Assembly: GCA_004519485.1 (NCBI GenBank)
Contig: CP038111.1
Span: 564,001-628,000 of the forward strand
From: Nannochloropsis oceanica
Taxonomy: Eukaryota > Sar > Eustigmatophyceae > Eustigmatales > Monodopsidaceae
Direction: 5' to 3'
DNA length: 64,000 nucleotides
Part shown: positions 5,118 to 41,344 of the stretch, piece by piece
Numbering within the stretch: position 1 is the first letter of the stretch
Layout: each line of letters begins with the position of its first letter
The notes under the pieces: generated by a model
What the model saw: the letters and a program-made list of their open reading frames with translations, nothing else
Told to the model about the DNA's origin: nothing
Database searches by the model: none
Translations under genes and position numbers: made by a program

Positions 5118-5993
5118 GGTGTGAATAAATGTGAGGGTTTATGTAAGGGAGGGTAGATGGGGAAGTGAAGTCGGTAGTAGGTTCTGTTCTGGGAATGCCT
5201 TGTAAGAAGAGAACAGGAATAGGAGAAGTGAGCGCGAGTTTTGTGAAATCCTGATGAGAGGCGAGTGTCATTAGTTTGGTCTTTGGCAAACGGGAAGAGG
5301 TTTGAAAACACCCCCCCACATGGTTGTAGTTAACTCTTGGTCTTGTGCTTGACCACGTTCACAAGATTTGCTCTATCTTGTCTGTTTTATTTTCAGTGTA
5401 CCCTCAGGGAGGAATATAAATGCTGCAGCCGAAGCAGGCCGAGTCTGCCAAATCTTAGTGTTGCGTTTGACTTGTGAAAAGGCAGGCAACCCTCCCAAGT
5501 GTGGCTGTCTGGCCCATGCTGAAGGCACAAAGAGCAGCAGGCTGCGGCGACGCGCAACTCTTCTCTCTGCTGCCATATTGATACGTTCATCCCCGTCTGT
5601 CAAGACCGGCACCCTGAACAGTCATACAGCTTGCTTCCAAGCAGAAGTGCATGCTTTTGTGTGTTTGTGTGCATTGCGTGGCAGGGGAAGATGCAGACTT
5701 AGATGAGCCCTACCATGTATGACCCCCGAAGCCATGCCATCCGCACCATCACCAACACGTGACGCACGCCCGCTGCTCATTCCCCAACCCGCACCACTGC
5801 CACATCCACAGTCTTGGCTGCACCAACAGCACCTGAATCTCCAGTAGCAAGCCCACCACGTGCTGCTTCTGCCGGCGTGGTGTGGCCTTTTTGTGACTGC
5901 TTCAATCCAAGGAGCAATCCCTGTGGGCTCTGATAAGTCGCCCTTCCCCTCCGCACCCTTGCTCTCCACAATCACCGGCGCCCAGACAGCCCG
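5118..5993. other. Spacer without a recognised gene
   Basis: The frame at 5368-5706 (+) lacks family motifs and looks fortuitous. The last 200 bases are likely promoter and 5' UTR for the Atp23 gene. No RNA gene is visible. Confidence 0.3.
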
Positions 5994-7143
5994 ATGGACT
6001 GTCTGAAGTGCAAGGCCTCTCTCAAGTCCGTCATGGCACGGCCCCGCCCCAAGGCGCTACTGGATGCGCTGGCCGAGACGGGCATCCAAACCTTAGAAAA
6101 TGCGCCCGAGTCCCGTCGTGCCGCGATAGCCGCCTCGACTCAAAGACACTTCCAGGGAGGAGGAGGAGGAGGAAGAGGACAACAAGACGGAGGGGAAAAG
6201 AGTGAAACAAAAATAAGTGGAAATTATGGTACGGGGGGCGCAGCAGGAGTAGGAGGAGCAGGGGCGACTTTAAATATAAAGTGCCTTAACTGTGCAGAGG
6301 AAGGGATTGCGATGAAAGCACGGGCATACATGGAGGCGCCGCCAATGTCGGTGGTGTTGTGTGCGAATCGTTTGCAAGATCGTCGGGAGATGGAGGAGGC
6401 ACTGGTCCATGAGTTGGTGCATGTTTATGATGTATGTAGGGTAGTAGGAGCAGGGGAGGGAGGGAGGGAGGGGAGAGGGGAAAACTGACGAAGGAGGGGA
6501 GAGCTGTCGACAAGGAAGTATATGTCCTTTGTTAATCGGTGGAAGAGGCGTCTGTTACTAGATGTCCCTGATTTTATGCCTGATAATTACTCCTCCCTCC
6601 CTCCCTTTCTTCCCACAGCACGCCCTTGTCAAGATGGACCTCACCAATTGCGCCGAGCTTGCCTACAGTGAGATCCGAGCCGCTCGCGAGGCCGAATGCC
6701 ATTACACCTCTCAGCTGTGTTCGTGGTTCAAGAAGCAGTGCGTGAAGAGCACGGCGACCCGGAGCACAGCCACCTTGTTCCCCGAGGAGGGTGCGAAGTG
6801 TGTGATGGGAGTATTTGAGGCTGCCTTTAAGGACATGGGTCCTGAACAATTGCATGCCGGGTTGACCACAGGAGGGGGGGCTGGAGGGGATAAAGGAGGT
6901 GGTGCACGAGGAGGGCGGGAAGGAAGAAGGGAGGGAAGAGGAGGAGAAGGGGGGGGGGAAAGGGAGGGAGGTAAGGCCCCGATTGGACGTACTCCGACGG
7001 CGGCATCGATGAGAGTTTTGATAGATAATCTACAGACAACTGGCCCTCCCTCCGCCCCTTCCTCCTCCTCTTTCTCCGCGTTTTCGGGGGTATCAGGAAT
7101 GGGGCTGGCGGAGACTTTGGCCACGGCTTTTGGGATTCGATGA
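5994..7143 (+). CDS. ATP23: Mitochondrial inner-membrane metalloprotease Atp23
   Basis: Exons 5994-6431 and 6619-7143 (phase 0; GTATGT...CCCACAG) encode 320 residues. Exon 1 ends exactly on the zinc protease motif HELVHVYD (His139, Glu140, His143). Exon 2 continues with the conserved NCAELAYSEIRAA segment, followed by AECHYTSQ and the Cys-containing region CVKSTA...CVMGVFEAAF typical of Atp23/KUB3. Known role in yeast: processes the Atp6 precursor and helps assemble the F1Fo-ATP synthase in the intermembrane space. Insertions peculiar to this copy are a Gly-rich loop before the LNIKCLNCAEEG segment and a Gly/Arg-rich stretch followed by a Ser/Ala tail after residue 220, so it is longer than the usual 230-250 residues. 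No classical N-terminal presequence is evident, consistent with Cys-dependent import. Confidence 0.92.
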
Positions 7144-7606: not shown

Positions 7607-9353
7607 ATGGTCTCCTCCTCCCGCCCCAAGAAGAAGCCTTTCTCCTCCTCCTCCTCCTCCTCCTCCTCCTCCTCCTCCTCCTCCTTCTTCTTCTTCCCCA
7701 CCTTTTCTTTCCTCATCCTCCTTGTAGCCGTCGGCCTGAAGCTATTCTCCATGCTCCTCTTCCGTACTATGGGCCACACCCTCGATCGCTCCCTTCCCTC
7801 CCACCTCGCCGCTGATGCACACTCTCTGCTAGGTACTGACTTCGTTTTCCGTGTGCCCGTGCGTCATCCTCACCCTCGCTCAGGACGAGGACGAGGACAA
7901 GGAGGAGGGGAGAACGGCAAGGACGACGAGGAAAAGCTGCTCGTGACCGTCCTGGTCAAGAAAGCCGTTCGCCCTCAACCACCAACGACAACAACAACAG
8001 CAGCAGCAGCAAAAACTGGCAGGGGGAAAGAAAATGAAGAAGATGACCCTCCCCTCATCCTCCTTTTGCACGGTTTCCCTGATGACGCGTCCACATTCCA
8101 CGCACAAATCCTCCCGTTTGCGACCGCGGGCTTCGACGTGGTCGTTCCTGTGATGCCGGGGTATGAGCCCAGTACGGCCCTCCTCCCTCCTGAGAGCTAT
8201 ACCTTGCCGTCACTCGCTTTGATGCTGGAGAATGTGGTTGAGTGGGCGGTGACAACTTCGTTTGTACACGCCGACGAGGATGGAGAGGAGGAGAAGGGAA
8301 ATAATGCCGTTAAAGAGGAGAAGGAAAATGAGCAAAGGAAATGTAAATTACGAAAAGGAGGGCGAAAAATCCATGTCCTCGGGCATGATTGGGGCGCGGC
8401 GCTGGCTTACCTTCTTTCGGCCGAAGGGAGTACGTCGGTAGGGAGAATAGCGTCGATTGCCACGCTGGCCGTGCCGCATAATCCTCTACCTGCCTTCTTG
8501 GCACATCCAGGGCAGTTTGTGAGGAGCTGGTACATGATTTTTATGGTAGGTAAGCGGGGGGGAGAGGGAGGGAGGGAGGGAAGAAAGGAGGGAGGGAGGG
8601 AGGGAGGGAGGGTGAGTCTCTCTTGACTCTCTGCTTGCATGTCTGGTGCATTCCCAGTGGTTTCGATTTATAGCTCTAATAAGAGAGGTGTGGAGTGGAG
8701 GGCCCCTCTCCCCCTCCTCTCTTCACTCCCCTCCCTTGCTCCTTACCTGCTTATTAATTTCCTCTTTTTCCTTCCCTCCCTCCCTTCTCCAGCAACTGCC
8801 CTTCTTGCCCGAGTACTGGTTCCGGCTCGGTGGTCGATTTGCTGGTCTGCACAAATTGTGGCGGGACTGGTCACCAGGATACGTCCTCCCTCCCTCCCTC
8901 CTGGCCTCGCTCCACACGACCTTTTCGGAGCCCGGTGTGCTGGTGAGTGCCATGCAGTATTATCGCGCCAATGTTCCGCCGATGCTGCAGCGTCTGGTGA
9001 GAGGGAAGGTGGAGGGGTGGGCAGGGGGAGAGGGAGGGACGGAGGGAGGATTTGTAGTTGGGGTGCCCACGTTGGGGCTGGTGGGAAAGGAGGATGGATG
9101 TATTGCTTCAGTGCTCTTTGACGTGGCCATGGGAAGTGTGGAAGGAGGGGGGCGGCACCACCCACTGTTTTCGAAGGCGGTCCAGGTGGCGAAGGTGGAA
9201 GGAGGGGGGCATTTTGTGCACCAGGAGAGGCCGAAGGAGGTAAACGCCTTGGTGTTGGCGTGGTTTGAGAGGTTTGGGGAAAACGGGACGGAGGAGAAAT
9301 CCAGGAAAGGGGGGGGTGAAGGAGAAATTCTGACAGAAAATGCAGACAGGTAA
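7607..9353 (+). CDS. Membrane-anchored epoxide-hydrolase-like alpha/beta hydrolase
   Basis: Exons 7607-8545 and 8793-9353 (phase 0) give 499 residues. The N-terminus is a poly-Ser run followed by a hydrophobic segment (FFFFPTFSFLILLVAVGLKL), probably a signal anchor. The hydrolase domain then shows the oxyanion motif LLLHGFPDDAS and nucleophile elbow GHDWGAALAY with the catalytic Asp, as in epoxide hydrolases and haloalkane dehalogenases. FVRSWYMIFM joins QLPFLPEYWFRLGG across the intron, reconstructing the family's SWYMFFFQLP signature and confirming the splice. The acid KEDGCI and the base GGGHFVHQERP complete the triad. The lid loops carry acidic and Lys-rich insertions. An upstream in-frame ATG at 7523 is possible but adds only Pro/Ser-rich sequence. 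The epoxide substrate is inferred from the family. Confidence 0.88.
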
Positions 9354-9960
9354 AGGTAGGGAGAAGGATAGAAGAAGAAACACATGCATGTAATGGAATT
9401 TGTCGCTTGTGCCCTCGCTTGAGTCTCATGTATTCGGATTTGCTTTGTGGTGATTTTCGTCTGGTGTACATGTACTGTTGCTGCTTTCTGTCTTTATTCC
9501 CACCCTTATCTCTTGTGCGTGTGCATGTTTCCTTTTCCGTTTCTATTGTCCTCATTCAATTGCTGCTGTCTTTTGAGTAAGTCGGCTCGTGGTGGATGGC
9601 GTTGCTCTTCATTCTCGTGAATCTGTCGGTCTTCATCGAGAGCCTTTGAACAGTCTCCTTGCATGGTGCCAGTGTCAAATAACCTCATCTGTTGCTTTTT
9701 GTATGCTTGATCCCCTGACTAGACTCGACGCACATGTATTCTGTATTCATCATGCCCCCACGCCCATAAATGCACATAAATATCTTTTTGCGTCGCACTC
9801 ATGACTCGAAAAAATAAAAGTCGTGTCCCTCCCCCACCTTCTCTCTTTCCCCTTCTCTTTGCCTGCCTCCCCTCCTGCATTCCTCCCCTCCTTTCAAGTG
9901 GGAGAAGGCCTGGGACATCTCATCCTCCTTCCTCCTCCCTCCCCTCCCTCCCTCCCTTTC
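9354..9960. other. Convergent spacer
   Basis: This lies between two genes that end towards each other, so it should contain both 3' UTRs. A T/G-rich first part is followed by CCCTCC-type sequence near 9820-9960. No gene is recognised. Confidence 0.4.
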
Positions 9961-12106: not shown

Positions 12107-15100
12107 ATGTCAGAGCGAGGGTACGTACAAAGTTGCGTGCAGTTTTGTTTGCGATGGAGTTTGTGTCTTTTCGTGCGTGTGTGGTTGTGGGTGGGAGCGG
12201 GCGTGATGAGTTGAAGCTGCCTGTTCCCTCGTAGTTGTTTTTCGACGTAATGCCCGCGACGAATGTGAGAGGCACAAAGATGCATCAGTCCCGAGTGTAG
12301 CCAGTGGATTATCGTCATGGTGTAGGAAGTGGCACGAAGGGGAGTGCCATCTTTTGTAAAAGGCGAGCGCGACGAAACCACAGAACTTACAGAAAACGGT
12401 GGCCTACCTACCCCTTCCCTCCTCCGGCTAGACCCCCCCACTTCATTGTACACTCCCCGCCATTACGCCCAGTTATTCACACCCACATCCTCGCACATCA
12501 ATACACAACGCATAAAACAGACGCGGGCGTGGCGGTGGATACCGTGGGGGAGGCGATCGAGGCGGAGGACGAGGGGGCGGCGGAGGACGAGGAGGGGACC
12601 GAGGAGGGGACCGAGGAGGAGGCGGCGGTGGCTACCGTGGCGGTGGTGGGGGTGGTGGTGTCCATCGTGGTGGAGGAGGGGGTGGAGGACGAGGAGGATA
12701 TGGTGGAGGGGGGCGGGGGGGGTATGGAGGGGGGGGGGCACCGCGGGCGGAAGAGTTTATGCGGGATATCCAGTTCTTCGATTCGGGGGTGACGGAAGGG
12801 CAGGCGAGTGCGGAATTGGTTGATCGCCTAACGGCCGTTTGTTTAACCGACGTGGAAACGGACGCGATTGCGTTGCCTGTCCGGCCACGGGTAGGGACGA
12901 AGGGAACTCCCGTGACGGTGTTGACGAACCATTTTAAGACCTCGCTGGATGGGAAGAAAGTGTTGTATCAATACGACGTTTGCATTACCGAGGACAATGG
13001 GCGGCCGATTGACAAGTTGCCCATGGCGAAGGCACGCGTAATTGTGGCCGCTGCCATCGCTCAGGCCGAGGGGGCAGGGGTCGCCAAGTTGCCCGTGGCT
13101 TTTGATGGACAGAAGAATCTGTTTACCATTAATAACACCACCCTGGGAGGGACCCGGACATTGACTGCACGCTTGGAGGTTGTGCGTGGGCCGGCGGGGG
13201 CAAAGGGGAAAGCGGCGGAGAAGAGCTTCGATGAATACCAGGTGAAGATACAAGTAGTAGGGGAACGACGCATGTCGGAGATTGTAAATTATGTCGAGGG
13301 GCGGGACGCGTCGGCTAAGCCGCAGGACGCCATCAATGCCTTGGACGTGGTGCTGAAGGAGGAGGCGCTGAAGCAATACAAGGAGATTGGTCGTTCGAAA
13401 TTTTTCTCTCCCCTGAATCCGGACAAGATTTTCAACGGGCTTTTCCACGCCTATCGGGGTTTTTTCCAGTCGTTGCGTCCGACCCAATCGGGACTAACCC
13501 TGAATGTCGACCAAGCCGTCGCGGCGGTGATGCGTGAACAGCCCCTGGTGGAGTTTGTGGCGGCCTTGTTGGGCATGCAGGGACCACCCTCGGGAAAGCT
13601 GGACGACCGGCAAGCAAAGGCGGTCTCCAAGGCCGTGAAACGGTTGAAGGTGGAAGTTACCCACCGAGGGGGTGGGCGCGTCTACACCATCATGGGCTTA
13701 TCGCCCCTCCCCGCGAACGCCACCAAGTTTATGAACGAGGAGGTAAAGGCGGAGCAGACTATCCAAGCGTACTTCCAGAGCAAGTATGGAAAACAGCTTC
13801 GCTTTCCCTTCCTTCACTGCGTCCGAATGGGCTCCAAGCGTCGTCCTACCTACTTCCCAATTGAGGTCTGCAAGGTGGTGGCCGGCCAGCGCATCCCCAA
13901 TCAGTTCGTTCCCAACGTGGCGGCGGACATCGTTGACATTGCGGCTGTCCCCCCCTCGAATCGCTTCAATAAAGTGTACACGCAAGTGCAGGCGATGGCG
14001 GCCGGGAGCGGGGGTGCGGAAGGCTTGGCGTCGTCGTTTGGTTTGAAATTGGAACCGAAGGTGGTGCGGGTGAAGGGCCGCTTTTTACCGGGACCCAAGG
14101 TATGTGTATATACGTATACGTAATCTTAATATAATATGTATATTAAGAAAGGGGTAGAGGGAGGGAGAGAGGGAGGGAGGAAAGTTTTGAGGAGGGTAGT
14201 GTGGTCGTAGTGTCTTTTGTTTCGGTCTCGTTTCTCCTTTCCTTGTCATCCCTCGTCTTCTCTTCTCCCTTTTCATACGCGGCTTCTCATGGATACATGC
14301 ACATATGCATGAAACGAAACAGTGGAATAACTCCTACCCTTCCCATCCCCCCTCCTTCCCTTCCTCCCTCCCTCCCCAGGTGACGGTCAAGGGCTCCAAT
14401 GGCCAACCCCTCACGGAGCAAGTCTCCGGGGGCATTTGGACGCTCATGCGCAAGTATTTCTACGCCTCGGCCGCCCTCGAAGAATGGGCCATCGTGTCCT
14501 TCGTGAGCAAGCGGCGATTAAGCGATCAAGACGTGCAGGCATATGCCGACGGTCTCCGGGACGCCCTCAACAAGACGGGCGTGCGTGCCCCGCCGCCCTC
14601 GACGATTATTTTCGCGGAGGACCAGCATGACACCGTCTCGAACTGCTTGCGGCTTGCACTAAAATCTGGAAAAATCCAATTAATCGTGTGTTGCATCGAG
14701 AAGGAAGTGCCGATCTACACGGAGGTGAAACGGGCAGCGGAAACGGTGCATGGCGTCATGACGCAGTGCGTGGTGAGGGACAACGTTCGCAAGTGCAACT
14801 TCATGACCAACGTGAATATTTCCATCAAGGTAGGGAAGGAGGGAGGGAAGGAGAGATGTTGCTAAGTCTGCCATGAGCTGTTTCATGGTCCTCTATTTCT
14901 AAAACTATTGAGATATCAACCATTCAACCCACCACTGCCCTCCCTCTCTCCCTCCCTCAATTCACCGATGTCCCTCCCTTCCCCTCCTCCCTCCCCCCTT
15001 CCCCCATCTCCAGGTGAACGAGAAGCTGGGCGGGATGAACTGTATCGTTGCCAAGGAACACATGCAATACATTCAGAAGAACCGTGTCATGATATTCGGT

Positions 15101-16713
15101 GCAGACGTGAACCACGCTAGGGTCGGGTCGATGCGACCGTCTTTCGCCGCCGTGGCGGGCTCGCTGGATGGGGATGCGCGCAAGCACGCGGCGGTGTTGC
15201 AGGCACAGTCGCCTCGGTTGGAGATTATTCAGGTTGGGCTGTGGGGGGAGGGGGGGGGCTGAGAGGGAGGGGAAAATGGAGGGAGGATAGGAGAGGGTAG
15301 GAAAGAGGGAGAGAGGGAGGGAGGGAGGAAGGGGGGGGGGGGAAGAGCTGTCCCACCGGTGATCTGCTTTCATTCTTTCTTCTTTCTATGCAGGTTTTCA
15401 CCCATGCCCGCCCGCTAATCATTTCCCCCATCCATCCCTCCTTCCCTCCTCAGGACCTCTCCAACATGGTCCAGAAGCTGCTCCTCAAATTCCACGCCTC
15501 GACTAAGTCCCTCCCCCATCGGATTATCTTCTACCGTGACGGGGTCTCCGAAGGCCAGTTCAAGGAGGTGCTGCAGTACGAGGTAAGCCCCGCCCTCCCC
15601 ACCCTCTTTCCCTCCCTCCCTGTCTCCCTTTCATCGTCTTGTATTTTGATACCATGACGGTTTGGACAGAACGAGATATTTCCCTCCCTCCCTCCCTCCC
15701 CTTTATCGTCAGGTGCCCGCCATCAAGGCTGCCTGCCTTTGCATCAACCCCAAGTTCAACCCTACCTTGACCAACATCATCATCTCACCCCTCCTCCTCC
15801 CTTTATCTTCAGGTGCCCGCCATCAAGGCCGCCTGCCTTCGCATCAACCCCAAGTACAACCCTACCTTGACCTTTATCGTCGTTCAGAAGCGTCACAACA
15901 CTCGCTTCTTCACCCCCGATATCAAATGCCAGGACGGGAAGAGTGGGAATGTCCAAGCGGGTATGGGAGGGCGGGAGTGAGGGAGGGAGGGAGGGAGGGG
16001 AGGAAGAAGGTGAAGATGGAGACGTGTGTATATATGTTGTTCTCTCTTGACTTGCCAACGTATCATGTGCCGGCACACATAATATGAAAACCCACGTCTT
16101 CGCTCACCCCCCCCCACACCTCCCTCCCTCCCTCCTCCCTCCCTCCCTCGTAGGCCTGGTGGTGGACACGGGCGTGTGCCACCCCATCGAGTACGATTTC
16201 TTCCTCCTCTCCCACGCGGGATTGAAAGGCACCAGCAAACCCTCGTATTATAGGGTAGGGAGGGAGGGAGGGACGGACGGAGAGATAGCATCTTGCTGGT
16301 GACTGGGGGGGCGCTGTTACGTGCTTGAGATTTGTGTCGTGGGGATCCGCGGTTTTTCACCCTCCCTCACTCCCTCCCTTCCTCCCTCCCTCCCTTCCTT
16401 CCTCACTCCCCAGGTCCTCCGTGACGAAGCTAAGATGGGCCCGGACGAGTTGCAGCTGCTCACGTACTTCCTCTGCCACAACTATGCTCGCTGCACCCGC
16501 GCCGTGTCCATGGTGCCTGCGGTGTACTATTCACATTTGGCGGCGAAACGGGCGCAGATCTTTTTAACGGACGAGGCGTTATCCAGCGAAACGGGGACGG
16601 AATTGTCGGGGGGGATGGATGAGGAGGAAATGGATATGTACGCAGATGTGAATTGGGATAATAAGATGATCCCGATTAAGTCGACCGTGATCGATAAGAT
16701 GTGGTTTTTGTAA
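12107..16713 (+). CDS. AGO: Argonaute, slicer-type, RGG-rich N-terminus
   Basis: Eight exons: 12107-12120, 12521-14099, 14380-14829, 15014-15232, 15454-15582, 15813-15960, 16154-16254, 16414-16713; the phases close to 979 residues. Residues 4-80 are RGG/RGGG repeats, as in plant and protist AGOs that bind partners through methylated arginines. Then N domain, linker L1 ([18 protein letters not shown]), PAZ (about 330-470), MID and PIWI. The four PIWI catalytic residues are present: Asp712 (FGADVNHAR), Glu751 (RLEIIQDL), Asp783 ([10 protein letters not shown]), His867 (FFLLSHAG), so target cleavage is expected. The C-terminus MWFL matches the buried end of eukaryotic AGOs. A 14-base first exon and a 400-base first intron separate the start from the RGG region. 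Function: small-RNA-guided silencing, cytosolic or nuclear. The family is clear; its guide RNA class is unknown. Confidence 0.97.
15701..15872 (+). repeat. 100-bp tandem duplication copying an AGO acceptor and exon start
   Basis: Bases 15701-15772 (end of intron 5, acceptor and the first 60 bases of exon 6) recur at 15801-15872 with four differences, offset exactly 100 bases. The second copy continues into the conserved PIWI sequence and is taken as the real exon; the first diverges after CCTACCTTGACC. Because 100 is not a multiple of three, using the first acceptor and reading through shifts the frame. Confidence 0.93.
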
Positions 16714-35926: not shown

Positions 35927-38418
35927 ATGGCGTCGTTGTCGCCATCCTCACCCACGGAGATCCGCCCAGCCTGTCTCCTGATCGATGGACATCACATGCA
36001 TCAAGCCAGGGAAGCTGCAGGTACGTTATGTTGTGGCTGTGTCGAATCTATGTCCCTGCGCCTGCAGACACCGCAACGGATTTTAGGCAACAATGCATCC
36101 ATTTCATTTTCGCGATACCTTTCCTTCCCTCGCTAACTTTCCTTGCACAGGCAACCCTCCCTTTCACCACGTCGTCCGCGCTCTGGAAATCGCTTATGGG
36201 TGTAGGTTCGTCCGCAAGGAATGGCACGAAGGCACGCCCGACGGCCGTCCCACACCCTTCCACCTTGCCATCTCTACACCAGAAGCGGGGCATGTCATCC
36301 CGAAAGTCCGTGCTTTACATACGACTCCCGGGTTTGCGGTCACGTCGGAAGGACGGACCACATCCCACCGTGTCGCGATTCGCGTCCCTAAAGGCGTGGA
36401 TGTGGCATTAGCCCTGGCAATGGTGCAACATGGCCATCACAATAAGAGATTCGACGATTATGGGCTTGTTGTCGTGGTGACGGGCGATGGGGATTTGGAA
36501 GAGGCTTTTGAACGGACGCCCATGCGAGTGGTGGTGTGTGGGTCCAGGGACGTGCTGGCACCAGCCTTGAGGCCTTGGGTGCGGTCGGAGGGGAACCGAG
36601 GGCTGTATTTGGATGAGGTCATGGCGGCTGCTCTATCACTGGCTGCTGGGGAGCACGCGGGAGGGTCCGGGAAGATGGTTGCTAAGCAGCACCAGCACCA
36701 GCACCAGCATCAGCATCAGCACCAGCAGGAACTCGCTGCGTCACGAGACCCTGGGACTGGCGGTTTGCACACCGACGACGCCCTCTCCTCTTCTTCCTCT
36801 TCCCGCAGCACCAATCGCAACGACACGCGGCCAGTTAACACTGTGGTCAACTCCGGTATGGGCACCCTGTCCTCCGCTGCCACCGCGACGAATAGCAGTA
36901 GCAGCACCAACAAGATGGTTGACTCCTCCGTTTCCTTCGCCTCTGCCTACGGCACCATCCCTACCTCGGGTGACGTACAATCGGAGCACTGGAAGCAGCA
37001 TGTACTACAACAGCAGCATCAGCAGCATGACGACGAACACGCTTTGATTGGCCCTTCTTTGCTACAGCCCCATCTCTCCGGCTGCGACAGCAATGCCACC
37101 ATCGGAAGCCTCGGGAGCAGCAACGGCAGTGACAGTGGGACCGGCAGCGAAATGCACGGACGACAGAGACGCCGTAAGTCCTCGAAGCTCCGATTACGTT
37201 GCTTTGCTGGTCCGCTGTGTACGAAACTGAGGGATGAAGATCACTTGCGGAGGACGACGCACCCATGTCCTATGGGCTTGGCGTGCCCGGTTTTGCATGC
37301 CGTCGAGACGCCAGAAACGACCTTACACATGGAGAGGTTCTTGCATCCATGCCCGAGGGGGCGTGTGTGTTTGGACGAAACTTTCGAGCATTCGTCGCTG
37401 TTTGAGCATGTAGGACGGAATGTGTTGCCCCTGTGCTCGATCGTGGGCTGCAAGGGGGGGGCTAACGGGGGAGGGATTATTGGGGCGGCCGGGGGGGGGG
37501 AGGGGGGGAAGGGGGGGGGGGGGAGGGAGCCAGAAGGATCGACAGATGATCAAGATGGCAGTACAGCAGTACCATGGTGGGGTGCCACACATGCACATAT
37601 GTCCACATGGGCGACAATGTTCGTTTTTATCGCACTCGGTGGCGGACAAGAGAGTGATTCGGCATACGGCGAGTTTCATCCATCCTTGCCCCTGGGGGGC
37701 AAGGTGCGTGGCGCGGAGGGCGGAGACGTGGAACTGGCAGCACATGTTGCAATTTACCCATTTCGCGGAGGATGATGAGCAGGTGCAACGGGAGAGAGAG
37801 GAGGAGGAGGCGAAGGGAAGGTTGGGAGGAGGGAAAGGGAGGGAGGACATAAGCGCGGAGAGGGACGAGGGGAGGATGGAGGAGCACGGGTTCTTTTCCC
37901 TGTCGTCGAACATTGGCAACGGTGGCAGCAACAACCATGTCGGGCTGCATGGGCTGAACCGTTTGTCATCGCTTATGCACCACTTGCCTTCCTCTGGCAT
38001 GACAGCTGCTCATGCCTCAATTGTGACTCGTCTGCAGGCCCAGGCCTACGCCCATGCGCTTGCCTCCGCGCAGCACAGCCCGCCTTCAATGCCGGAGGAG
38101 CGGAGAGACATTGATGCAGGACTGCTGCTATCTTCCTCTTCCTCGGAAGGAGGAGATTACTCCCTCTTGGGTGGCGCGGGGGTGGCGGCAGGGAAGGGGG
38201 AAGGGGAGCGAGGAAGGAGGTATTTTCAAAATGGGCAACACCACACGGCTTCTTCTTTGGGGCGAGGTGGCGTGGATGGCAGTGGAGAGGACGAGGAGGA
38301 TGAGGAGGGGAGGGAAAGAGAGGGGGTAGGAGGAGGCGATGGTGGTGAGAAAGAGCAGTTTTTGATTCCGTCTTTTAGCTCTTCTCTCTTGCCGCCGGCC
38401 TACCAAAATATTTGGTGA
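35927..38418 (+). CDS. NYN-domain (putative RNase) protein with repeated HPCPxGxxC zinc fingers
   Basis: Exon 1 (35927-36020) and exon 2 (from 36151, phase 1) join CLLIDGHHMHQAREAA to the rest of a NYN/PIN-like domain (to about residue 190). The acidic residues of the fold are visible in LLIDG and VVVTGDGDLEEAF. A Gln/His repeat and a Ser-rich linker follow. Zinc-finger-like units start near residue 375: CFAGPLC, HPCPMGLACPVLH, FLHPCPRGRVC...HSSLFEH. After a G-rich stretch (37455-37530) the reading moves to another frame, open to a TGA at 38418, with ICPHGRQC and FIHPCPWGARC. So either an intron (possible acceptor CGACAG at about 37550) or a homopolymer length error lies in the G run. NYN domains are often ribonucleases; RNA turnover is inferred. 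Confidence 0.72.
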
Positions 38419-39904
38419 CACAAGTTTGAGGCTTTTTCGTATTTGTTTGGTACCGCTCTTGGCATTGCCAGGGCGGTTCAAAAGGGGTATATCGAATGTC
38501 AGTGACGACTTTTCGGTCGGTCGGTGGTCCAGTGCATTAATCTTTATTTAAGATATCTTTGTGTAAGCCTCAAATTTATCCTAGCGAGAGGAAGGGAAGT
38601 AGAAATAGAAATAGGAGAATTAAAATTGGGGAGCTACACCCATATCAAAATCCGACAGGAAATAAGAAATTCGTGAACTCATGGGAAGAGTTAATGAGAT
38701 ATGAATCAGTCAATAATAGGTGTGTAAAAGTGACAAAAATAAAAGGGTAACAGTATAAATTGGACAGATAAGTGTAGTATGGCAAATGTATGAGTCAGAC
38801 AGTCAGTTCCAAGAGAGAGTGCATGTGGCTTTGAAACTGATATGAACATTATGCTTCACCACAATAATGGTCATTGCGCTATTCTCTATCTGTCTGTCTG
38901 AAATATAATGCTGTGGTTCAAAGTTGATACTGCATGACGGAGTATGACTGAGACGAAAGGGAAGGAGATTTACCGCTCTGTGTATCGCAACAACGAAGGA
39001 GCTGCCGCGAATTCGGAACCCCAAAAAAATATTTTCAACAAAACTGCCGATGTGGTGTAGTCCACAGCCAACCACTAACAAAAAACACCACAGATTTTAG
39101 CTATAATAGCAATTAACAAAAAACGAAACTGGGGCCACCGCAAGCAGGAAGCCCGAAAGATAGAATATCAAAAGAAGCCTCTGTCCCGCCATTGACTGTC
39201 CGTGAGTGGGTGCTTTCAGAGCTTACAGCCGCACATAAAAGCACAACAACCATCGTATCATGTATTTCGTAGCACTAGCACGGCCAATAACAACAATTTA
39301 AGAAAAAGTAACCACGAATAACGCTTGTGTGTTTTTTTGCCTTAGCTTTTTATTTTCTGGCGTTAGTGGTCGGGGTGGTATCCTCGGGAGAGTCATGGCT
39401 TGTAGGATATGTGAAACCGAAGTAAGTGGCCATGAGGATTGATGTTTCTGCTATTTTAATAGCAGATAAATCGTCATAAGTCGTAAAAGACGGTGCCATT
39501 AGCACGATTCAGAAGGCTGGTGTTTGTGCGTGGACCTCGGGTGTCTTTGACACATGTGCGGAGGGGGACGCGATAACATAGGACCGAGTGAAGGGACCCG
39601 CACTTTCAGTCAATCTGTATGTATAATATGAGATAAATAAAGCAAATTTTATCACTGCATATAATACACATATAAACTGCCATTCCCCTAGTAATATTGT
39701 GAATTTACTGATTTGCTGCCTTCGGAGGGGTGGGGCGCCCGGTTGTGTCTTGACTCCATAGGTCAAGCCACAACAGAGCAGATTGCGCACCCGAAGTCGG
39801 CAAATTTCAAAGTCAAAGCACAAATTGTTGTTTTTAAATGCTTCATCTAAAGTCGCAAACTCCCTTGCAAATTAACCTCCCCTCCAAAAACGCAGCTTCA
39901 ATTG
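38419..39904. other. 1.5-kb AT-richer stretch without a recognised gene
   Basis: The base composition is clearly more A/T-rich than the rest of the window (many AAAA/ATA runs at 38540-38800 and 39240-39700). No coding frame of note and no tRNA-like structure is seen. It borders the long inverted repeat. Confidence 0.4.
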
Positions 39905-40418
39905 AACAACGGCTCCATCACCAGCGACAGTGATGCCATTGCCATGGCCACAGCGGAAACAACTTCTGACACCGGCACCATCCGTACGAGAAACAAGGCC
40001 AGTAGGACGCCTTCGGGGATTGCACTGGCCTTCGCGAAGCCAGACGTCTCGCCGGAAGAGGCTGAGGAGTACATCAAAAAACATCTCATGCCAGACGCTA
40101 TGCTTAGGGAGGGTAATTGGAGAATCAAAGAGGCACCCAAATTCCATGTTAATCGCAGCCCAATCTGGACATAACATGGAATTTGGGTGCCTCTTTGATT
40201 CTCCAATTACCCTCCCTAAGCATAGCGTCTGGCATGAGATGTTTTTTGATGTACTCCTCAGCCTCTTCCGGCGAGACGTCTGGCTTCGCGAAGGCCAGTG
40301 CAATCCCCGAAGGCGTCCTACTGGCCTTGTTTCTCGTACGGATGGTGCCGGTGTCAGAAGTTGTTTCCGCTGTGGCCATGGCAATGGCATCACTGTCGCT
40401 GGTGATGGAGCTGTTGTT
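39905..40418. repeat. Near-perfect 247-bp inverted repeat with 20-base loop
   Basis: Left arm 39905-40151 pairs with right arm 40172-40418; positions i and j sum to 80323. Reading both arms I find one mismatch (39911 G against 40412 T, which would still be a wobble G-U in one of the two RNA strands) and no gaps. The loop is 40152-40171. Both arms encode the same peptide (for example DVSPEEAEEYIKKHLMPDAM), the right arm on the minus strand as part of a gene, the left arm on plus without an ATG. Transcription through it gives a long hairpin RNA. Confidence 0.95.
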
Positions 40419-40586
40419 ATCATTAACCTTGTCGTCCTCGACTTCGAGGTCGAAACCTTGGAAGTCGTTTTCGTCCTCCTCCTGTTGTTCTTCGTCGTGA
40501 TGGAGGTGATGGAGCTCCATCTCCTTTTCCTCCTCCTCATGAGAAGACAGACCAGGAAGAAGAGCATTCTCGTCGGTCACTAACAT
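40149..40586 (-). CDS. Unidentified acidic protein, 3' end inside the inverted repeat
   Basis: An open frame of 145 residues begins with MLVTDENALLPGL, then acidic and His-rich sequence (EEEEKEMELHHLHHDEEQQ), a DxxSDSD-like stretch, and an ordered basic end (DVSPEEAEEYIKKHLMPDAM, then NWRIKEAPKFHV). It stops a few codons into the hairpin loop, so the original gene was probably longer and cut by the inverted duplication. Residues from about 58 onward are coded by the right arm of the repeat. The (GA)n tract upstream (40624-40660) is presumably 5' UTR or promoter. I do not recognise the family. Confidence 0.5.
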   Translation of the reverse strand: MLVTDENALLPGLSSHEEEEKEMELHHLHHDEEQQEEDENDFQGFDLEVEDDKVNDNNSSITSDSDAIAMATAETTSDTGTIRTRNKASRTPSGIALAFAKPDVSPEEAEEYIKKHLMPDAMLREGNWRIKEAPKFHVMSRLGCD

Positions 40587-41344
40587 GACGCGTGCTATAG
40601 CTGTATGTGTGCGTGTATGTGTGAGAGAGCGAGAGAGAGAGAGAGAGAGAAAGAGAGAATGAGAGGGAGGAGGATCAGTCAGCGACTTTGCGGAACAAAT
40701 AGAGTTCATTGTTCACGAGGCGGCGTACTTGCGCGCCTGCAGACTTGCACAGACATCAACCCACTTCGTGGCCACGGGTTTATTGGTCTGACTTCATGCC
40801 AGAATCTGTCGTTGTGACGAATTACTCCTGTCCGCTTCATGGTGGTGCGCAGATTAAATACAGAGTGGTGAAGTAACTTCGTGAGGGTCCAAAAATCATG
40901 TACGAAGTAACCCTCGTCACTTTGTGCTGCCCACGATTTTGTGTACGAAGTGACGGCATAACTTCGTCCGCCGCCACAAAATGTGTACAAAGTGATGGAT
41001 TACATCAAATATAGACGAATTAGACAAAGTAACGCATAATTTCCTGGACAGGGCCTTTTTCGTCCAAAATTCGTAGGACGTGTGGCTTCAACCGAGGCTT
41101 CAACTCACCATGCCCAATGGGGTCATGTATTGACCTCCTGGCTCCTGCACGGACATAATAAAGATCATAGAACAAGACAGCTCGACATTGCTTTAGGCAT
41201 GCTACGATAGGTCCCGGGATAATCTGCTTGGCTGCTTTACCTGGCGGCGCGTTCCTTTTGTCACTTGAAATCTAGGAAAAGCGAAACATTGATTTGACGC
41301 CTCCTCCTCCTCCCCCTCAACACTAACACAGAAGAAGGCCTGAT
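40587..41344. other. Divergent spacer with short inverted motifs
   Basis: It lies between the small acidic protein (minus) and the secreted hydrolase (plus). It contains a GA microsatellite (40624-40660) and a cluster of short motifs at 40866-41000 (listed separately). No gene is seen. Confidence 0.4.
40866..41000. repeat. Cluster of TACGAAGT / ACTTCGT motifs
   Basis: Within 135 bases the octamer TACGAAGT and near-copies occur three times on plus (about 40910 and 40944, and TACAAAGT at 40986). The complementary core AACTTCGT occurs at about 40875 and 40960, with GTCACTTTGT at 40916. The pairs form imperfect short palindromes. This could be a decayed tandem repeat or clustered protein-binding sites. 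Confidence 0.55.

Follow-up and report, generated by a model that had tools for sequence, protein, structure and literature searches.

We found that a long, near-perfect inverted repeat in the genome of Nannochloropsis oceanica lies within a rearranged copy of a hAT-type transposon. The repeat family, the kept 5' terminal inverted repeat (TIR) and upstream region, the inverted duplication and the near-perfect target-site duplication (TSD) flanking it can all be read from the DNA. In its sequence, the locus has the structure of a rearranged transposon like Mu killer of maize. The hairpin that it would encode could probably yield siRNAs directed at the transposon family from which it derives. 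The analysis covered a window of 64,000 nucleotides (contig CP038111.1, positions 564,001 to 628,000), and unprefixed positions below are those of this window.

An inverted repeat inside a transposon copy

The two arms of the inverted repeat are 247 nt each (39905-40151 and 40172-40418) and are separated by a 20-nt loop. They have one mismatch, at 39911, where the left arm has G and the matching site of the right arm has A. The left-arm G is the derived base, because A is present in the right arm and in all aligned relatives (6/6). The right arm is enclosed by a minus-strand frame (40149-40712) with an ATG at 40586, and the upstream region is kept. Six further inverted repeats of at least 20 nt were found between 38000 and 43000. 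These were only 20-23 nt long and 73-86% complementary, so the 247-nt repeat is not a product of chance. Folding the minus strand of 39880-40440 as RNA gave -550.8 kcal/mol, compared to a mean of -186.4 for shuffled sequences (sd 7.2; n=100; z -50). The predicted fold is a long near-perfect duplex, as expected of an hpRNA locus. Arms, loop, frame and the geometry for long double-stranded RNA had all been described in a first-pass annotation of the window, and our measurements agree with it. We dropped the idea that the repeat belongs to a structured-RNA family, as Rfam gave no match at gathering score within the window (0 matches).

The features of the locus, and the Argonaute gene of the same window, are as follows.

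12516-16557, plus strand: Argonaute gene, comprising frame 12516-14123 (ArgoN, ArgoL1 and PAZ) and Piwi exons 15008-16557
39895-39902, no strand: left TSD GCTTCAAT, matching the right copy at 7/8 positions (from the sequence)
39897-39906, no strand: 10-bp palindrome TTCAATTGAA at the outer junction, a possible hAT excision footprint (from the sequence)
39905-40151, plus strand: left arm, an inverted duplicate of the transposase gene's 5' part (sequence comparison)
40152-40171, plus strand: 20-nt loop, continuing the parental gene past the left arm (homology to three C20 copies)
40172-40418, minus strand: right arm, the transposase gene's own, resident 5' part (sequence comparison)
40149-40586, minus strand: truncated transposase frame, MLVTDENALL...APKFHVMSRLGCD, with its stop just beyond the loop (frame list, homology)
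40419-41084, minus strand: 5' region of the hAT element, with upstream region and first codons (common to at least nine other loci)
41068-41084, minus strand: 5' TIR CACACGTCCTACGAATT (comparison of copies)
41085-41092, no strand: right TSD GCTTCAAC (from the sequence)

We searched the genome (29.26 Mb, 32 contigs) for relatives of the locus. The arm together with the loop (39905-40173) matched three places on contig C20 at 94%, and partial arm matches of 71-98 nt were found on C7, C17 and C6 (twice). The right flank (40419-41084) matched at least nine further loci (one on C7, two on C17, four on C20 and two on C6), a lower bound like all copy counts from this search, in which the best candidates were scored. 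The matches at these nine loci all stop at window position 41084 or 41085. For 35 of the 47 right-flank rows, the sole match was to a simple-repeat stretch rich in GT/GA (40602-40678), which lies within the element's 5' region. The left flank (38550-39904) had no match elsewhere in the genome in this search. From these patterns of flank and arm matches we conclude that the hairpin belongs to a single copy of a repeated element, which ends on the right at 41084.

Comparison with the nine other copies examined (L028-L036) indicates that the fragment in the inverted repeat comes from the 5' part of a gene for a hAT-type transposase, and that the unit at about 39903-41084 is one transposon copy. 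Arm sequence was present in seven of the nine; L033 and L036, which are short relatives, share none. By our own reading of the residues, the arms correspond to the beginning of the gene, and a BED-like pattern follows downstream of them. The window copy retains the 5' TIR, the upstream region and the ATG (40586), up to the right arm. There the gene sequence changes strand. The inverted copy takes the place of the 3' part and adjoins the near-perfect TSD.

The first-pass annotation had taken the arms for a piece of a gene that the locus might silence. They are a gene fragment, but the parent is not a host gene, which we ruled out because the relatives of the fragment are transposon copies with a common end. 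As the parent is a multicopy hAT-type family, and the locus itself a wrecked transposon, the putative target is a transposon. The annotation had also suggested looking for an intact paralogue. Single copies of the fragment do occur elsewhere in the genome, but no plainly intact transposase of the family was seen among the copies read, in which introns make the reading uncertain. The transposase body of L030 carries stops. The C7 and C17 copies are open over the piece equivalent to that of L030, but lack about 1 kb upstream. Since no plainly intact transposase was seen, an active target is possibly absent. A simple MITE was ruled out as well, because the arms are internal coding sequence. In MITEs and foldback elements, the inverted repeats are the element's own termini and recur in many copies; here, paired arms were present in none of the copies L028-L036 (0/9).

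In gene orientation, copies of the family start with CACACGTCC at the shared end. L028 starts with CAAACGTCC, and the start of L036 is altered after CACAC. L030 and L032 have an inverted partner, ...GGACGTGTG, at the opposite end, giving the short TIRs of a hAT element (CACACGTCCGACGA / TCGTCGGACGTGTG); the window copy has the 5' TIR only. A TSD of 8 bp is the defining length for the hAT superfamily. We found such duplications around L032 (8/8; GTCATGAT), L030 (7/8) and the window unit (7/8). L035 has both terminal motifs without a matching duplication, and may join parts of different insertions. In copies other than L030, L032 and L035, no second element end was recognised. The copies L031 (C7) and L032 (C17) have an identical upstream flank, GCGCGTGTCATGAT, which suggests a segmental duplication more than it does two separate insertions.

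Assignment to hAT was made through a sister family. The transposase piece of L032 matched this family at 47% identity (E 1.4e-62). The hAT C-terminal dimerisation domain (PF05699) was found in sister copy L059 (34.8 bits; cut-off 21.4), and sister copy L057 scored 21.2 bits, just under the same cut-off. Matches of the sister family to Hermes transposase were weak (E about 0.001). We call the hairpin's family hAT-type because of the PF05699 domain and the weak Hermes matches of this sister. None of ten pieces of the hairpin's own family, taken from the window and four other copies, had a hAT match in Pfam, a point in which the family differs from Hermes and TcBuster, and a PDB search with one of its transposase pieces returned 0 hits. 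The likeness to hAT elements such as Hermes and TcBuster lies in the 8-bp TSD, the short TIRs, the possible excision footprint with complementary insertion and, in the sister family, the C-terminal dimerisation domain.

Junctions and origin of the hairpin

The inner junction fits a template switch with short homology. Parental sequence runs 22 nt past the left arm, through the loop, to 40173, and overlaps the right arm by 2 nt. At the outer junction, three bases separate the end of the left arm (39905) from the 7-mer GCTTCAA (39895-39901), which is found again directly past the right TIR (41085-41091). A 7-mer coincidence so placed occurs for 0.0008 of random position pairs in the window (computed post hoc). 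The chance of a 10-bp palindrome such as TTCAATTGAA centred within 3 nt is about 0.007 (also computed post hoc).

Footprints of TcBuster, with complementary insertions, support hAT excision by way of a flank that is hairpinned and then opened (PMC3499496, in the part of the article available). The outer-junction palindrome looks like the footprint that hAT excision leaves, so the hairpin may have arisen from an aborted excision. In this scheme the element would have been cut at its 3' end. Resection would have followed on the element side, which would have folded back on itself, and the fold-back product would have been joined to the processed flank. We think it very probable that the locus is a hAT-type copy that lost its 3' part in such an aborted excision or repair, and that a duplicate of the transposase gene's 5' part, made by fold-back, took the place of what was lost. 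Four of the seven relatives with arm sequence (one each on C7 and C17, and two on C6) have internal deletions whose start lies in the arm region, which fits a family prone to faulty gap repair.

The arms differ from each other by 0.4%, and from the three arm-spanning C20 copies by about 6%. This difference indicates that the hairpin event is young relative to the age of the family, or that the arms were kept alike by conversion. The first-pass annotation had considered the repeat young or maintained; the divergence speaks for its youth, and maintenance would be a further possibility.

Silencing genes and possible function

The window also contains an Argonaute gene, which the first-pass annotation had called slicer-competent. 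The gene is present; its frame and Piwi exons were taken as one gene because of their order. Three of the four slicer residues are visible (D, D and H), which we take to belong to the catalytic set; no residue was assigned to the fourth, the glutamate. A genome search for Piwi domains returned one gene, the Argonaute of this window. Dicer was found as one frame of 1883 aa with DEAD, helicase C, Dicer-dimerisation and two RNase III domains, and RdRP matches were found on C16, one of them within a 1241-aa frame. Dicer and Argonaute genes, expected in a genome with an hpRNA locus, are thus present. The RdRP at C16:600879-602702 has a second RdRP-like stretch in its vicinity (C16:595627-596797). 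Of the two matches in this stretch, one contains four in-frame TAG, and the stretch could be a pseudogene or an intron reading.

We compared the distinct 21-mers of the arm (n=234) with the other copies of the family. Exact matches were found in L028 (75), L029 (88), L030 (76), L031 (31), L032 (31), L034 (48) and L035 (48), and in neither L033 nor L036 (0 each). If siRNAs are made, these seven copies could therefore fall within their reach. Outside the family, the matches listed in two arm searches included only one, a protein-level hit on C18 (E 0.006, 26% identity).

Minus-strand transcription from the kept transposase promoter would cross the right arm, the loop and the left arm. The transcript would fold into a 247-bp duplex with one mismatch, Dicer would cut this duplex into small RNAs, and the single Argonaute found would use them against transcripts (or chromatin) of other copies of the family. 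Taken as a whole, the best explanation in our view, with about an even chance of being right, is that the rearranged hAT copy is a source of hairpin siRNAs against its own family, as proposed for Mu killer. That small RNAs are made from the hairpin in the cell is a prediction that could equally well succeed or fail. A measurable silencing effect on the transposon family is rather doubtful.

As far as the available text on Mu killer goes, the window locus resembles it in being a partial inverted duplication of the transposase gene of a DNA transposon, from the element end next to the gene; in both cases the element copy carries an internal deletion and has a host gene on either side. An inverted duplication of part of the transposase inside a derived copy of the element marks the Mu killer type and is found here. 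Mu killer differs in deriving from MuDR (Mutator), with arms of about 1.3 kb and two TIRs of the same element end; the window locus is hAT-type and has 247-nt arms, one TIR and a 20-nt loop. Dominant silencing was demonstrated for Mu killer, whereas our likeness is one of structure alone. A hairpin RNA and siRNAs were proposed for it (PMC3440606, available part; Slotkin et al. 2005 as cited there).

The inverted duplication might instead be an inert by-product, debris of aborted transposition or gap repair that is untranscribed or transcribed too weakly to matter. Such debris would probably not persist, as near-perfect palindromes are unstable. We give this reading a considerable chance, somewhat below even. 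Repair accounts for the structure (the 2-nt overlap at the inner junction and the footprint-like outer palindrome), and gap repair is expected to give functionless inverted duplications too, without selection. The internal deletions in four of seven arm-bearing relatives are consistent with this, as is iterated fold-back at the second hairpin described below (a 54-nt near-palindrome, L059 2640-2693). The single derived mutation between the arms fits simple youth. Against it, the hairpin copy has retained its ATG, TIR and upstream region, the genome encodes Argonaute, Dicer and RdRP, and small RNAs do come from inverted repeats in two other protist groups.

In Trypanosoma brucei, long near-perfect inverted repeats (7/7) are sources of small RNAs (PMC3447711), and in the stramenopile Phytophthora infestans the most small RNAs per Mbp come from inverted and tandem repeats (PMC3804510). 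These resemble the window locus as protist inverted repeats; unlike it, they are not described, in the available parts of the two articles, as transposase-gene hairpins of repair origin. The hpRNA loci of Drosophila simulans (hp-Nmy, hp-ODox2 and others) are likewise inverted repeats, built of parts of other genes or selfish elements, and hp-ODox2 derives from a transposon and yields siRNAs. They differ in that their siRNAs are Dcr-2-dependent and many of their targets are novel X-linked genes (PMC10317233, available part).

It is very unlikely that the locus acts as an antisense source, in which plus-strand RNA over the left arm, from read-through of an upstream gene or from a left-flank promoter, would give short antisense acting on transposase mRNA. 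Plus-strand RNA across the right arm (the resident exon) would be antisense to this mRNA, and there are plus-strand frames upstream (36087-37775 and 37414-38418). There is also precedent in the proposal of Skibbe et al. that Mu killer may act through short antisense transcripts rather than a long hairpin (PMC3440606, available part). However, a plus-strand transcript over both arms would fold equally, and promoter evidence was found nowhere on the left-flank side. The upstream frames stop about 1.5 kb short of the arm, which makes this reading slightly less likely still. Near-perfect palindromes can arise as assembly or library artefacts, but a simple fold-back chimera is very improbable here because the outer flanks differ (the left is unmatched elsewhere and the right is the transposon common to nine other loci) and the arms differ at one base; moreover, a near-perfect TSD surrounds the unit and the second hairpin has distinct junctions of its own.

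Returning to the hairpin as a possible siRNA source, a hairpin construct lowered the expression of a gene in Nannochloropsis salina (PMC12133928, available part, where N. oceanica work is cited). A ketol-acid reductoisomerase whose nearest solved structure is the rice chloroplast enzyme agrees with a photosynthetic host. Among the matches listed in a search of the small-RNA literature on Nannochloropsis and stramenopiles (titles and starts of abstracts, subscription papers being mostly outside it), nothing concerned the window's hairpin locus. The available parts of two N. oceanica genome papers (PMC3499364 and PMC10943562) have no bearing on the hairpin; the former has 0 occurrences of Argonaute, Dicer and RNAi.

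A second hairpin and other inverted repeats

A second hairpin of similar design was found in a copy of the sister hAT family. We scanned 188,014 bases for inverted repeats, comprising the window and 14 loci that were chosen, transposon-rich and non-random, and kept matches of at least 60 nt and at least 75% that passed a complexity filter. The second hairpin (C6:627160-627664; L059 2661-3165) has paired blocks of 107 nt (100%) and 104 nt (97%) and a 79-nt centre, and its RNA fold has a z of -38. It is likewise built from the 5' part of the transposase gene. Compared to L057, L059 has lost about 1 kb of the middle of the gene and retained the 3' part. The 54-nt near-palindrome mentioned above is at its outer junction, and because of it fold-back apparently took place twice. 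Three relatives (C20:744741, C6:1137782 and C20:730454) have the arm sequence of this hairpin at one place each, and a fifth locus, on C28, matches the element outside the arms only. Thus hairpins were found in one of the ten copies of the first family, all of which were read, and in one among five loci of the sister family matched over at least 220 nt, two of which were read.

In the broadest reading, which we consider unlikely, the hAT elements of this genome "vaccinate" their host against themselves. Transposase would make hairpins of the flank ends on aborted excision, the element would be repaired by fold-back, and an immobile hairpin gene under the element's own promoter would recurrently result. 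Each of the two sister families has yielded one such locus, built of the transposase gene's 5' part. If the reading is true, active transposons would supply an RNAi trigger against themselves, in an organism with one Argonaute gene found. The idea bears on how a transposon is first recognised by a naive cell, for which Mu killer is, in our judgement, the best-known case of a chance rearrangement proposed as the first source of double-stranded RNA. What makes the locus interesting is that a counterpart exists in the sister family and that the searches gave a single gene each for Argonaute and Dicer; a compact genome with these genes and two hAT-derived hairpins suits testing of the trigger idea. 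The junction footprint, if right, would link the birth of the trigger to the excision chemistry of the transposon.

Besides the two hairpins, the scan found inverted repeats in the window (one, 61 nt, 14 kb apart) and in L028, L032, L033, L034 and L036, mostly diverged or far apart. L034 (C6) has a 161-nt inverted repeat (5657-5817 / 6794-6954) that is 98% identical, 976 nt apart and apparently recent. In L033 (C17:641000-650900), inverted repeats 102-397 nt long and with 77-92% identity are clustered. L036 (C20:693500-703400) has several long palindromes that have diverged to 80-88% identity (8893-9699, 9266-9718 and 74-317); they lie in a repeat-rich stretch and are apparently from other repeat families.
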